NCBI GenBank assembly: GCA_017883135.1
Contig: JADGOE010000004.1
Span: forward strand, 1-64,000
Direction of reading: 5' to 3'
DNA: 64,000 nucleotides
Source of the DNA: Acidimicrobiales bacterium
GTDB lineage: Bacteria; Actinomycetota; Acidimicrobiia; Acidimicrobiales; RAAP-2
Positions 13,697 through 18,712 of this stretch are shown piece by piece (positions within the stretch are counted from its first letter, which is position 1; the number at the start of each line of letters is the position of its first letter). Below the pieces are notes generated by a model that was not told where the DNA came from, did no database searches, and saw nothing but the letters and a program-made list of their open reading frames with translations. Position numbers and translations under genes: made by a program.

Positions 13697-15240
13697 TCAG
13701 GCCACCGGTGCCGGGCGCGCACCCGGCGGCTGATCCCACCGTTGGCGGCCGGTCAGGTGCTCCCACGCGGTCCACGCGAGCAGGCCGGCCATGCTGGCCA
13801 TGGCGGCTCCGGTGCGGACCCTGCCGGTGTCGACATCCCACGACTCGCAGGCCAGTCCGTGGTCCATCGGCGTCCCGACCAACTGGTCGAGCGGATCCCC
13901 GTCGCAGGTGTCGCGGTCGAGGAGCCGATTGGCCAGATCGAATCCCGACGGATAGGGGAAGTGGGGGGCGCCTGCACCGGAAAATCGCCCGTTGTAGTGA
14001 TACCTGTTCCCCTGGTGGAGCCACGACCGTGTGGCCTGCTGGATCGGGTCGGTGGCACCCCCGACCCCCCAGTAGGGGAGGGTGCGCAGGCTGAGGGGCG
14101 GCTCGTCCCGCACCTCGAGGTTGCCATCGACATCGCACGCCCAGGCCCACCTCCGACCGTGTGGACCGTCGATGGTGAGCCGCTCTTGCATCGTGGCGCG
14201 GATAGCCGCGGCGCGGCGGCGGTGCTCGCTCGCCGCCTGGCCGGCAGCGAACCCGTCACCCTGCTCGATCCCGCACCCGCCCGCCTGTTCCGTCAACGCG
14301 GCGAGGGCGTCGAAGGCCGCAGCGACCACGGCGTTGCAGGTGGTCACATACGGAAAGGCGGTCGGGTCGTCGGTCGGAAGCAGAAAGGTCCCGTAGAGGT
14401 CCCAGTGGGGATGGCGCCATGGCTCGACGGTCGACCCGAAGCGGCCGAGGGCCGCCAGGACCGCCCGCTCCTCGAGGATCGTCCAGTCACCGGTTGCCTG
14501 GACGTAGCGTCCGACCGCCACCAGGGGTGCCGCCGCCTGGTCGAGCTCGAAGCCAGGGTAGAGCGAGGTGCCGTTGAGGTAGAGGGCGTGCTCGGCCACC
14601 CGCGGGCCGGCGGCCGCCAAGGACGCGACGAGCACCTCCCGGGAGCGGGCCGGATCGGTGAGGAGCAGTGCGGGAAAGGTCCAGCAGTAGGCGTCCCGGC
14701 TCCAGAAGGCGGCCGACACGTAGTAGTGGGGGCTCCGCGACGTCACCACCACCGGTGTGCCGGTGTCGAGGCAGTTCCCCTGGGCGAAGTAGTAGTTGAA
14801 GAAGAGGTTGGTGTTGACCCGGTGGGCCAGTCCGGGCCGAGCATCGCCGACGGGAAGCGCGTGGGCGGCCAGCCACGCGCGGGAGGTCTCCCACAGGGCG
14901 TCGAACCCGCGGCGCCGGAGGTGGAGCGACGTGGTGGCTGCACCATCGGGTTCGGTGGCCACGCCGATGTAGAGGTCAGAGGTGAGCGTCTCGCCCGGCT
15001 CCACGGCCTCCTCGCGAGTTGCCCTCCATCGGGGAGTTGTTCCTCCCCCGGTCGCGTCCACCCCGTCACCGCCCCGCCACGCGATGGCCAACAGGGGGAG
15101 GCCTGCGGTCAGCGAGACGACCCGGCTGCCGGTCCAGGGGTCGTCGTGGGCCAGAAGCTCGCCGTGGACCGCCTTCGAGCGAAGATGGGTCAGGGAGCTG
15201 GTGTCCCAGCGACCTGACCATCCGAGCCTGACCTCGCAAG
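13697..15240 (-). pseudogene. Six-hairpin-type glycosidase, 3' part (gene interrupted by IS element)
   Basis: This is the larger part of a glycosidase gene cut by the element at 15241-17351. With one copy of the 8-bp duplication removed, the 5' part (17759-17352) joins exactly in frame to 15232-13697, giving 647 residues across the site as ...SLAVDPCEVRLGWSGRWDTS. The catalytic-domain region has FFNYYFAQGNCLDTGTPVV, YYVSAAFWSRDAYCWTFPAL and HPHWDLYGTFLLPTDDP, typical of (alpha/alpha)6-barrel glycoside hydrolases; the exact GH family (GH15/63/125-like) is not certain. An internal start in the fragment would lack the N-terminal beta domain, so it is probably inactive. It was the last gene of the ROK operon. 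Confidence 0.75.
15233..15240. repeat. Target-site duplication, left copy (CTCGCAAG)
   Basis: Eight bases, CTCGCAAG, directly abut the left inverted repeat and are repeated exactly at 17352-17359 after the right inverted repeat. An 8-bp duplication is the known hallmark of IS1595-family insertion. Removing one copy with the element restores the glycosidase frame. Confidence 0.95.
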
Positions 15241-15264
15241 GGCACTGACATACCTGTCACACCC
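15241..15264 (+). repeat. Left terminal inverted repeat of the IS1595-like element
   Basis: The 24 bases begin GGCACTGACATACCTGTCAC and are the exact reverse complement of 17328-17351. The GGC start fits IS1595-family ends. Confidence 0.95.
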
Positions 15265-15300
15265 GGTCGGGCAGAGTCCCAGGTCGGGGGGCGATAGGCG

Positions 15301-16377
15301 ATGACCCGCTACCGTTGGGTGTCCCGGCCGCAGGTTGGAGCCATGGTGGCCGATGACTGGGTCGAGAACCTGGAGGTCGATCTAGTGCCCCGTGTGCCTG
15401 AGGACGAGCTTGAAGCCGTTGTCTTTCTCTATTCGGGCCGTACGGTCAGGGAGAGTCGAGTAGCCGCTGCGAAGGGGCGCAAAGGTGGGGCTACAGGGTT
15501 CATGGTGGGCGAGCCCTTCATCCACGGCAGCACCCTGGACCACCATATGTACGTGGTCACCAATCGTCATTGCGTCGAAGGCAAAGCCATCACCATACGG
15601 GCGACGGTTGAGACTGAGACTGGCCCAGCTGTGGCTTTTGAAGACACGAAGGATGGGGAATGGCTTCTCAGCGACGATTTCGACGTGGCCGTTCATCTCT
15701 GGAAATCGGGCGCTGAAACCTCGGCCGCACACGTGAGTAGTTCATTGCTCAGCCACGACGACATGCGGAGAATCAACGTGGGTGCCGGAGATGAGGTCTA
15801 CACGATCGCTCGATTCATCCACCAGGATGGCGGGGAGAAGAACCATCCGATCGTTCACAGTGGCATGGTGGCGAAGCTACCTCTGGACCCGATCAGGAAT
15901 CCCCACACGAAGAAGGACGAATACGACTTCTTAGTTGAGACGTACTCGCGGGGCGGCTACAGCGGCTCGCCGGTGACGCTCTACATCACGCCCGAGCAGC
16001 CGGTGCTGACCCGCGGTCGGCGCAACATTGGTCCGCAGATTCTTGTTCTTGGCGTCATGTGGGGACATATCAAGACGTTCGAGCCAGTGATCGACCCCGA
16101 GATTGAGGACGACGACAAGAGCACTGGAACGGTTGTCGGGTTAGACACGATGGTCGCTGGTGTGGTCCCCGCCTGGGAGATAATGAACCTGATCAATCGC
16201 CCCGATGCTGTGGCGCAACGTAAGGAATGGGAGGAGCAGATGAGGGAATCGAAGAAATCATCCATGCGTGCGATGCCTCAATCGGAGGCAGTGACGGACT
16301 CCGAGGACTCGATCGACAAGACAAAAGACCTGGTGGGCAAGCTGCTCCAGGTGCCCAAAGACGAGCCGGAGGACTAG
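15301..16377 (+). CDS. Trypsin-like (chymotrypsin-fold) serine protease, IS passenger
   Basis: The 358-residue protein has a trypsin-like catalytic triad in the correct order and spacing. His90 is in YVVTNRHCVEG, Asp128 in SDDFDVAVHLW, and Ser221 in RGGYSGSPVTL (the GxSGxP oxyanion motif). GGATGFMVGE before the His is the usual buried N-terminal strand region. No signal peptide or membrane segment is present, so the enzyme is cytoplasmic. The charged C-terminus (QRKEWEEQMRESKKSSM and beyond) is a helical tail of about 60 residues. Start is ATG 15301, 36 bases inside the left repeat; ATG 15343 with TTGGAG is an alternative. It lies wholly within the transposon and is therefore mobile. Possible roles are host defence or aiding element maintenance; both are inference. 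Confidence 0.85.
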   Translation: MTRYRWVSRPQVGAMVADDWVENLEVDLVPRVPEDELEAVVFLYSGRTVRESRVAAAKGRKGGATGFMVGEPFIHGSTLDHHMYVVTNRHCVEGKAITIRATVETETGPAVAFEDTKDGEWLLSDDFDVAVHLWKSGAETSAAHVSSSLLSHDDMRRINVGAGDEVYTIARFIHQDGGEKNHPIVHSGMVAKLPLDPIRNPHTKKDEYDFLVETYSRGGYSGSPVTLYITPEQPVLTRGRRNIGPQILVLGVMWGHIKTFEPVIDPEIEDDDKSTGTVVGLDTMVAGVVPAWEIMNLINRPDAVAQRKEWEEQMRESKKSSMRAMPQSEAVTDSEDSIDKTKDLVGKLLQVPKDEPED

Positions 16378-17309
16378 GCCGCGTGATTGTCGGTCAACTC
16401 CTTGTAGGTGATCCGGCGACCGTGGGCACCTGCCGTCGCAAGGCGCATCCGGCCCAGGTCGGCCTCACCGCGATTGTTGTAGGAGAACGCCCGCTCGTCG
16501 ATGTAGCGGTTCGTGTGGCGACGCATGTTGTGGGTGTACGTCCCCCGCCATGCCCGCTTGTAGAGCGTCCAGAAGTTCTCCATCGTGTTCGTGTGCACGA
16601 CGCCGCAGACGTACTCGCGGGAGTGGTTGACGGACTTGTGGGTGAAGTCCTCGTCGAGTCCCAGGTACGCCCGAGCCTCATCGGTATAGACCGTGGCACC
16701 CGACTCCACCCATGCCCGCACGTTGGACTGCAGGGTCGCCCGGTCGGGAGTGTTGACCATGGTGGCGACGACCGGTCCGCCGCGCTGGACGGCACCTTGA
16801 ATCGCCACCTTGTCGACACCACCCGTGCCGTGAATCCGCTCAGCCCGCAGATGACCGTGCATGAACTTGGCCTGTCCGCCGACGTAGGTCTCGTCGACCT
16901 CTACGGTCCCGTCGAGCTTGGCGAAGGTGTCGGTCGCCATGGCGTGGCGAATCCGGTGGAGCATGAACCATGCCGTCTTCTGCGTGACTCCGAGCGCCCG
17001 GCCCAACTCGTGGGACGAGACGCCATTCTTGGAGTTGGCGATGAGCCACACGGCCGGGAGCCACTTGTCCCACCCGAGCGGAGAGTCCTCGAAGATGGTC
17101 CCGACCTTCAGGCTGAACTGACGCTTGCATCCCTTGCACTTCCAGATGCGACGCGTAGTGAGGAACGAGGTCTCTTTGTGGTCGCACCTGGGGCACACGA
17201 CTGGCCCGTCCTGCCACCGCATCTGACGCACGAAATCGAAGGCCAGATCGGGGTCCGAGAAGTACTGGACTGCCTGGATGAGGTTCGTGGGCTGGGGCTT
17301 CGTTGCCAT
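16374..17309 (-). CDS. IS1595 family (ISXO2-like) transposase
   Basis: The 311-residue transposase starts MATKPQPTNLIQAVQYF and has an N-terminal zinc ribbon (CPRCDHKE ... WKCKGCKRQF, about residues 36-62), a helix-turn-helix stretch (NSKNGVSSHELGRALGVTQK), and the ISXO2-like DDE core. The core has VEVDETYVGG at about 137, VYTDEARAY at about 208, and HTNTMENFWTLYKRAWRGTY at about 240, where the family has an Asn/His plus a Glu/Lys. All catalytic positions are present and the reading frame is whole, so it may be active. It begins 19 bases inside the right repeat. The frame is open upstream through the repeat into the glycosidase 5' part, so host-promoter readthrough could express it. Confidence 0.93.
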   Translation of the reverse strand: MATKPQPTNLIQAVQYFSDPDLAFDFVRQMRWQDGPVVCPRCDHKETSFLTTRRIWKCKGCKRQFSLKVGTIFEDSPLGWDKWLPAVWLIANSKNGVSSHELGRALGVTQKTAWFMLHRIRHAMATDTFAKLDGTVEVDETYVGGQAKFMHGHLRAERIHGTGGVDKVAIQGAVQRGGPVVATMVNTPDRATLQSNVRAWVESGATVYTDEARAYLGLDEDFTHKSVNHSREYVCGVVHTNTMENFWTLYKRAWRGTYTHNMRRHTNRYIDERAFSYNNRGEADLGRMRLATAGAHGRRITYKELTDNHAA

Positions 17310-17327
17310 GTACCTATTGTCGCAAAT

Positions 17328-17351
17328 GGGTGTGACAGGTATGTCAGTGCC
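17328..17351 (-). repeat. Right terminal inverted repeat of the IS1595-like element
   Basis: The 24 bases end ...GGTATGTCAGTGCC and mirror the left end without a mismatch. The transposase ATG lies 19 bases inside, so its promoter probably overlaps this repeat. Confidence 0.95.
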
Positions 17352-17359
17352 CTCGCAAG
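17352..17359. repeat. Target-site duplication, right copy (CTCGCAAG)
   Basis: Exact copy of 15233-15240, immediately outside the right inverted repeat. Confidence 0.95.
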
Positions 17360-17759
17360 GGTCCACGGCGAGACTCCGGTAGGCGAGCCGCATCACCACG
17401 CCCCGTTCGTCGGTCGGAGCGCAGTACCAGCCCTCGAGGAACCCCGAAGGGCAGGCGCAGGTGAAGTGAGGCAGCCAGTGACCCACGCGTTGCCACTGGA
17501 GCGCCCCGAGCTCGACAGGCTCGCCGGCGACGATGAGCACCGGTTGGACCAGGTGATGCCCGTTGCCGTCCCCCCTCGCCTCCACCAGGCCCAGGGCGCG
17601 TTCGACCAGGACGCCCAGTGAGTGCACCGACCCGTCCTCCCCGCTGATTTCGGAGAGCGAGACCCACAGGTTGCCGGTCGGGAGGAAGTGGGGATGGTCG
17701 GGGACCTCGGGTGCGTTGGTCGCCAGGCCGGTGCCTCCGGCACTGCCGGGGCTGGTCAC
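17352..17759 (-). pseudogene. Six-hairpin-type glycosidase, 5' part (gene interrupted by IS element)
   Basis: This 136-codon piece holds the start of the glycosidase whose remainder is at 13697-15232. GTG at 17759 overlaps the stop of the upstream amidohydrolase (GTGA), so this start fits the operon; a GTG at 17768 is in the same frame. It encodes HFLPTGNLWVSLSEISGEDG, a serine-rich strand, and FLEGWYCAPTDERGVVMRLA, an N-terminal beta domain. The frame runs uninterrupted into the transposase. By itself it cannot make an enzyme. Confidence 0.8.
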
Positions 17760-18712
17760 GTCGAGCACACTTCGAGACCCAACAGTCGGGCCGCGTTGCC
17801 CGCGTACACCAGGTGGCGGTCGGCGTCGGAGAGTCCCAACCGGGCCACGATGCGCACCTGCTCGTCGTAGTAGGCACGCACCAGCCCCCTCGGGAACTGG
17901 GCGGAGTCGGAGCCGAACAGGATCCGGTCGGGCCCGATCGTGTCGAGGAATTTGGCGAACAGGTCACCCAGTGAGAGCGGATAGGGCATCCAGCGGACCC
18001 ACTCGTTGTTGCCGGAGGTGTCGACATGCACGTTCCGACAGGCCCAGGCCAGCTGCAGGAGGTCGCCGGGGTAGCTGCAACCGAAGTGGGGGACCACGAA
18101 GGGCACCTCGGGAAACGCCTTGGCCACCGAATGCAGCCGCAGAGGACTGATGCTCACATGGTCGGCGATGCCGCCACCGCCGTCCAAGGTGCCGAAGTGA
18201 ACCAGCACCGGGATCCCCAGTTCGTCGGCCACCTGCCACACCGGATCGAGGGACGGGTCGTCGATGGGACCGTCCAGCGCCGGGGCAAACACCTTGTAGC
18301 CGCAGAGACCGTCCCCGGTGACGGCCTGTCTGAGCTCGGCCGCCGCATCCGGAAGGAACGGATCGTGATGGGCGAACCCGAGCATACGCGGGTGGTCGGC
18401 GATGGCTGCGGCCAGGGCGCGATTGCCCCCGCCGGTGACGAAGACCACCGCCTCGAGATGTGCCGCCTCGATCTCGCCGGACCACCGGTCTGCCTGCGCC
18501 TCGGCTGCCAGCACGGTCTCCTCGGGGAAGGGGAACGATCGGGCCGACCACCACTGTTCCTGATACCAGCGCCAATTGCGGTGCAGGATGTCCGCCTTCC
18601 GGTCACCGTGGCGCAGGCGGTAGCGCTCCTCGGATGCCGGGCGATGCTCGTCGGGAACCGGAAGGTGGGCATGGAAGTCGACGATGGGGAATCCCCACTG
18701 ACTGGTGCGCAT
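17756..18712 (-). CDS. Amidohydrolase family protein (amidohydrolase-2, TIM-barrel metal hydrolase)
   Basis: The 318-residue protein starts MRTSQWGFPIVDFHAHLPVP, with the D-x-H-x-H metal motif at about residues 12-16. It contains GLCGYKVFAPALD (strand with the bridging Lys), IPVLVHFGTLDGG (third metal His), VVPHFGCSYPGD (fourth His) and RILFGSDSAQFP (metal Asp). It is of the ACMSD / 2-pyrone-dicarboxylate-hydrolase-like amidohydrolase-2 group, acting as hydrolase or decarboxylase; the substrate is unknown. It overlaps the glycosidase start by four bases and follows the YtcJ-like gene by 19 bases. Confidence 0.83.
   Translation of the reverse strand: MRTSQWGFPIVDFHAHLPVPDEHRPASEERYRLRHGDRKADILHRNWRWYQEQWWSARSFPFPEETVLAAEAQADRWSGEIEAAHLEAVVFVTGGGNRALAAAIADHPRMLGFAHHDPFLPDAAAELRQAVTGDGLCGYKVFAPALDGPIDDPSLDPVWQVADELGIPVLVHFGTLDGGGGIADHVSISPLRLHSVAKAFPEVPFVVPHFGCSYPGDLLQLAWACRNVHVDTSGNNEWVRWMPYPLSLGDLFAKFLDTIGPDRILFGSDSAQFPRGLVRAYYDEQVRIVARLGLSDADRHLVYAGNAARLLGLEVCST

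Follow-up and report, generated by a model that had tools for sequence, protein, structure and literature searches.

Small insertion sequences are usually regarded as bearing little beyond a transposase. The locus studied here, within a 64,000-nucleotide stretch of DNA that we call the window, raises the question of what a serine protease is doing between the ends of such an element, and whether its presence there is accidental.

Anatomy of the element and its passenger

A complete IS1595-family element occupies positions 15241-17351 of the window. The features in and around it are as follows.

13697-17768, minus strand: interrupted host gene, 650 aa when its parts, 13697-15240 and 17352-17768, are joined without one copy of the duplication
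15233-15240, no strand: left copy of the target-site duplication (TSD), 8 bp, CTCGCAAG
15241-15264, plus strand: left terminal inverted repeat, 24 bp, GGCACTGACATACCTGTCACACCC
15301-16377, plus strand: passenger, an HtrA-fold/trypsin-like serine protease of 358 aa (His90/Asp128/Ser221)
16303-16374, plus strand: C-terminal tail of the protease, approximately residues 335-358, with a predicted helix at 335-349 and the motif DLVGKLLQVPKDE, matching stand-alone small ORFs of related IS1595 elements
16374-17309, minus strand: IS1595-family transposase, 311 aa, with zinc ribbon and DDE domain, convergent with the protease
17328-17351, minus strand: right terminal inverted repeat, 24 bp, perfect reverse complement of the left
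17352-17359, no strand: right copy of the target-site duplication, 8 bp, CTCGCAAG

The ends, GGCACTGACATACC, are inverted repeats starting with GG and, together with the 8-bp duplication, are those expected of the IS1595 family; the 25th outer base also pairs, by accident. A perfect 24-bp inverted repeat inside an 8-bp repeat is far beyond the reach of chance. Moreover, in-silico excision of the element with one copy of the duplication converted the two gene pieces of the occupied site into a continuous 650-codon ORF on the minus strand. By eye, this split host gene resembles a glycoside hydrolase. The transposase matches the NCBIfam IS1595 family (NF033547, 6e-52), Pfam DDE_Tnp_IS1595 (PF12762, 3e-35) and the zinc ribbon PF12760, all above their cut-offs. 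Its catalytic residues, D139, D210, E244 and K251, fit the arrangement DE(T/S)Y-G, VYTD, (I/M)EN-FW, K described for a family member of the IS1016 type (PMC12561309). The element is intact and has transposed. A first-pass annotation had called it a complete IS1595-like element with 24-bp ends, an 8-bp duplication and an intact transposase, and on this the ends, the duplication, the restored gene and the profiles agree. The transposase is present in a single copy in the genome, as is the protease, and the 3′ ends of the two ORFs share a few bases around their stop codons. With a passenger ORF unrelated to transposition (15301-16377) inside a TSD-bounded element, the locus has what defines a transporter IS (tIS).

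The passenger had been described as a 358-residue protein with His90, Asp128 and Ser221 in trypsin order. This description holds: the three residues are invariant in an alignment of 20 relatives, and an AlphaFold2 model (mean pLDDT 81) has an HtrA fold spanning residues 22-306. The model superposes on Deg/HtrA 3qo6 with a Z score of 21.1 over 204 residues at 3.0 A, and Foldseek likewise matched it to Deg/HtrA proteases. Triad and modelled fold together are those of a trypsin-like (chymotrypsin-fold) serine peptidase. Pfam Trypsin_2 scores the window protease at E 4.5e-5 and 24.7 bits, under the curated cut-off of 27.6, and the L034 relative above that cut-off. A search of solved structures by sequence gave no true relative, but the fold search did find one. 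No PDZ domain, as expected of HtrA/Deg, is present in the model, and there is no room for one because residues 307-358 form only helices. Nor did we see a signal-peptide-like stretch at the N-terminus (by eye, no predictor), in line with the first-pass annotation; the protease is probably cytoplasmic.

Recurrence of the protease and other cargo

One account of this locus is that an ordinary IS happened once to capture a protease gene from a chromosome and that no selection was involved. The single protease copy in the genome is compatible with this, as is the scarcity of relatives in the phylum, with protease matches in only 3/296 Actinomycetota genomes, the source genome counted. Plasmid and phage collections yielded no relatives of the window protease. 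However, G167, one of the two other genomes with a match, contains the same convergent pair in a TSD-bounded IS1595 element, the protease being ~30% and the transposase 52% identical. A wider scan of genomes turned up 20 loci from Actinomycetota, Gemmatimonadota, Acidobacteriota, Armatimonadota, Pseudomonadota and others, and an IS1595 transposase adjoins the protease at L054 (the same as G167), L055, L057, L058 and L064. Viral contigs scanned by protease alignment returned poor patterns and no match with a two-sequence alignment, whilst a four-sequence alignment worked; two transposase-baited scans of viral contigs gave L075 and then L154, L166, L179, L195 and L198.

In all, the convergent protease-transposase pair was found at 12 loci (the window, L034, L055, L057, L058, L064, L075, L154, L166, L179, L195 and L198) whose hosts belong to at least four phyla (Actinomycetota, Acidobacteriota, Gemmatimonadota and Pseudomonadota). 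Clean 8-bp duplications flank half of them (the window, L034, L055, L058, L166 and L198), three TSD-bounded protease elements being from Actinomycetota. The duplications are ambiguous at L154 (a run of AT) and L195 (7-9 bp), and no target duplication was found at L057, L064, L075 or L179. The Rubrobacter element at L055:3162-5170 (the same as L051) is TSD-bounded with both genes frameshifted, representing either a decayed copy or assembly errors. These twelve loci, spread over at least four phyla and with the triad intact throughout, contradict a one-off capture, which we regard as scarcely credible.

At the remaining genome loci, and on viral contig L053, the protease stands without a detectable IS1595 transposase. 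In the protease tree, transposon-borne and free kinds are intermixed, requiring 8 changes, at least 4 of them forced by well-supported branches, although long branches leave uncertainty; therefore capture or loss has been repeated. A single origin of the transposon-borne proteases is, with the same reservation, unsupported by the tree.

The transporter habit extends beyond proteases. Among 54 TSD-bounded IS1595 elements chosen by transposase alone, we identified as cargo DUF3800 proteins (5), PAPS-reductase/SspD-like proteins (3), N6-methyltransferases (2) and PIN proteins (2), as well as SocA/Panacea, Schlafen-AlbA and one trypsin-like protease. Elsewhere, L041 carries an MTase-HNH and L044 an HsdM/HsdS-like cargo. 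Since related elements carry other cargo, bearing a passenger is a habit of the group and no accident. The first-pass annotation had proposed a mobile protease module, to be checked by looking for homologues beside IS1595 transposases in other genomes. Such homologues exist, and neither outcome that would have refuted the module came about: relatives are not confined to sites outside transposons, and related elements do not lack passengers in the way that would betray a single capture.

Several cargoes are of note in their own right. DUF3800 is the commonest identified cargo in the 54 elements (by eye, at L079, L134, L139, L114, L161 and others). The PAPS-reductase-like proteins (SspD/DndC-like; L127, L140 and L167) have no other phosphorothioate-system genes in the element. 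L211:3435-6512, also one of the 54, TSD-bounded and with a 20/20 end match, carries a C5-cytosine methyltransferase and an NgoFVII-type endonuclease, apparently a whole type II restriction-modification pair. L037:5086-8599 carries a ClpP-class (SDH) serine proteinase, of unrelated fold, beside a stand-alone ORF of the kind described below.

The cargo of the group leans towards defence-type genes. In PADLOC, the PDC-S45 family matches the window protease (E 1.6e-8) and 19 of the 20 protease family members, and LmuA matches 6/20. The PADLOC 'PDC' families are candidates only (PMC11514479), and a defence role for the protease is plausible by inference from these matches, protection against phage not having been shown. 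The window element holds only protease and transposase, with no sensor, partner or nuclease gene.

The C-terminal tail

Alignment revealed a feature overlooked by the first-pass annotation: transposon-borne proteases extend some 40-50 residues beyond the end of their free relatives and finish in a tail of 20-50 residues, which the free ones do not have. At the same position, other IS1595 elements have a stand-alone ORF of 41-95 aa, convergent with the transposase. These ORFs share a common motif, which in subgroup 1 is 'F(E)...lls VPKsE'. Those tested had no match among Pfam or NCBIfam families, a comparable small ORF is unannotated in two public plasmid records that we checked, and ISCsp2 of a Comamonas plasmid has no such ORF. 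A third type of tail ORF, without annotation in the two plasmid records, adjoins IS1595 transposases at L244:3300-3506, L245:3309-3509, L203, L215 and L216; in L244 and L245 it is unrecognised by both of the profiles described next.

Tail profiles were made solely from stand-alone ORFs of other IS1595 elements, profile 1 from subgroup 1 and profile 2 from subgroup 2. Profile 1 matches the C-termini of the proteases of L075 (4e-10), L034 (5e-9) and the window (2e-3). Profile 2 matches L154, L198, L055 and L058, and weakly L179 and L064, plus two methyltransferases and a membrane protein. None of the 12 non-transposon proteases matched, and a general profile scores poorly on the L057, L195 and L166 tails. 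For most transposon cargo tails, 0/200 shuffles scored as well. Within its group the window tail scores lowest, at 8.6-12.5 bits with only 13 residues aligned, and 1 of 20,000 composition-preserving shuffles was as good. Across 3,325 ORFs of at least 120 aa from all loci, the distance from the end of an above-threshold tail match to an IS1595 transposase was always between 0 and 723 bp and mostly no more than 16 bp; one of the matches was itself a transposase ORF. Since it was mainly through their transposases that these loci had been retrieved, the test and the choice of loci are not independent. When 198 genomes were searched throughout, four of the five best places fell within IS1595 elements and the fifth adjoined an assembly gap.

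It is the amino-acid sequence of the tail that is conserved: Val is encoded by all four of its codons, and pN/pS is 0.67 compared with 0.95 and 1.28 in the shifted frames. A DNA-level cause, namely base constraint at the end of the transposase, was ruled out for subgroup 1: there the tail does not overlap the transposase gene, and third positions are free to vary. The same control cannot be applied to subgroup 2, many loci of which have the tail running antisense across the 3′ end of the transposase. From these comparisons we infer that the protease tail is a fusion with the small accessory peptide of the element lineage.

Such fusions could be trivial. The tail may be merely a small accessory protein encoded by the IS, with captured genes reading through into it, so that cargo and tail are independent and the cargo is a plain passenger. 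Many relatives do have the tail as a separate ORF of 41-95 aa beside other cargo, and the cargo is highly varied. However, fusion recurs in several tail subtypes with unrelated partners. Besides the protease, these are N6-DNA methyltransferases of the type I/IIG kind (L156:2221-4638, L158:1009-3462 and L194:4621-6993, two with an HsdR-N-like part) and, by eye, a membrane protein (L159). This suggests more than accident, although no expected rate was modelled, and we consider simple read-through rather unlikely without discarding it.

Moreover, the tail goes with the transposase. Over 34 elements, tail and transposase similarity are correlated (Mantel rho 0.60, P 5e-4). For the ten proteases, rho is 0.45 (P 0.004) between tail and transposase, 0.22 (P 0.085) between tail and cargo and 0.12 (P 0.24) between transposase and cargo. 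Within subgroup 1 alone, the tail-transposase correlation is not significant (Mantel rho 0.19, P 0.21). The stand-alone tail of L189, an element without protease, is nearest to the tails of L179, L064, L195 and L198, which also have the nearest transposases. As judged by these similarities, tail type was shown to track the transposase more than the cargo. It is conceivable, and for now no more than a tentative proposal, that this unannotated C-terminal peptide is a tag tying proteases, DNA methyltransferases and membrane proteins to their cognate transposase, the tag co-evolving with it whilst defence-type cargo is exchanged.

The same tracking could also mean that the protease serves the transposon and is no defence gene. 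Tethered to the transposase by its tail, it would set how often the element transposes by cleaving the transposase, a regulator of the host or a competing copy. The convergent arrangement with the transposase, the two stop codons being only a few bases from each other in the window and in L034 among others, and the single copy in the genome also fit this idea. Yet sister elements have methyltransferases, membrane proteins or nothing in place of the protease, which is therefore unnecessary for transposition, and stand-alone relatives exist outside any IS1595 element. We find a self-serving protease unlikely.

Proposed mechanism and comparison with known systems

Taken together, the explanation that we favour, and hold to be reasonably probable, is a transporter IS1595 element whose cargo, a protease of defence type, is joined to the accessory peptide of the element; we propose that this peptide makes contact with the transposase. 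What the tail does, and that the protease acts in defence, are inferences without experiment. Several points weigh against this reading: the weak tail of the window, the lack of a significant correlation within subgroup 1, the poor general-profile scores of three tails, the protease loci without a target duplication and the absence of a sensor or partner gene from the element. As the anatomy shows, the transposase acts on the 24-bp ends and inserts the element with 8-bp duplications. The passenger is an HtrA-fold serine protease, probably cytoplasmic and of a type associated with defence, for which fold and triad are in evidence and defence is presumed. Its C-terminus appears to be fused to the accessory peptide of the element lineage, for which many relatives have a mini-gene of its own, convergent with the transposase. 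The tail may then dock on, or be recognised by, the cognate transposase, for which there are no contact data, and the tagged cargo would thereby stay functionally tied to the element. The protease might cut proteins of phage or competing elements, protecting host and element, or, less likely, trim the transposase or its regulators. With no nuclease in the element, the simpler guess is that the protease cleaves proteins of phage, competitor or host directly.

One IS family here repeatedly bears defence-type enzymes, some of them joined to a conserved element-encoded peptide. Should the peptide bind the transposase, it would give transposons a new means of retaining and controlling their cargo, and would serve as a motif for finding further cargo, unknown defence genes included.

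Siguier, Gagnevin and Chandler reportedly described IS1595-family 'transporter IS' in 2009. The 'transporter IS' work of that year is cited in PMC3129680 and PMC12561309. The window element has in common with transporter IS an IS1595 transposase with zinc ribbon, the DDE-K signature, GG-type ends, 8-bp duplications and a passenger between the ends. Membership of IS1595 and carriage of a passenger are thus already established kinds. We found no report in the open literature of a protease passenger or a passenger-fused tail peptide in IS1595, ISfinder and the 2009 paper being outside the scope of that search. Therefore protease cargo and tail fusion are provisionally undescribed as far as the open literature shows, the novelty of the tail ORF being put forward without comparison to ISfinder or the 2009 paper.

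The protease itself resembles HtrA/Deg proteins (DegS, Deg1 3qo6) in fold (Z 21) and His-Asp-Ser order; unlike them it lacks a PDZ domain and an apparent signal peptide, and its C-terminus consists of a helix and the IS1595 tail. Trypsin-like proteases that activate a partner nuclease are known from several defence systems (PMC12799240). Like the proteases of Lamassu (LmuA), Hachiman and AVAST (PMC12799240), and like PDC-S45, the window protease is a trypsin-like peptidase without a secretion signal. Unlike those of Lamassu, Hachiman and AVAST, it has no partner nuclease or fused sensor and so does not form the paired genes typical of them. Moreover, whereas the defence proteases are joined to a defence enzyme at its N-terminus, the window protease stands alone in a transposon and bears its tail at the C-terminus.
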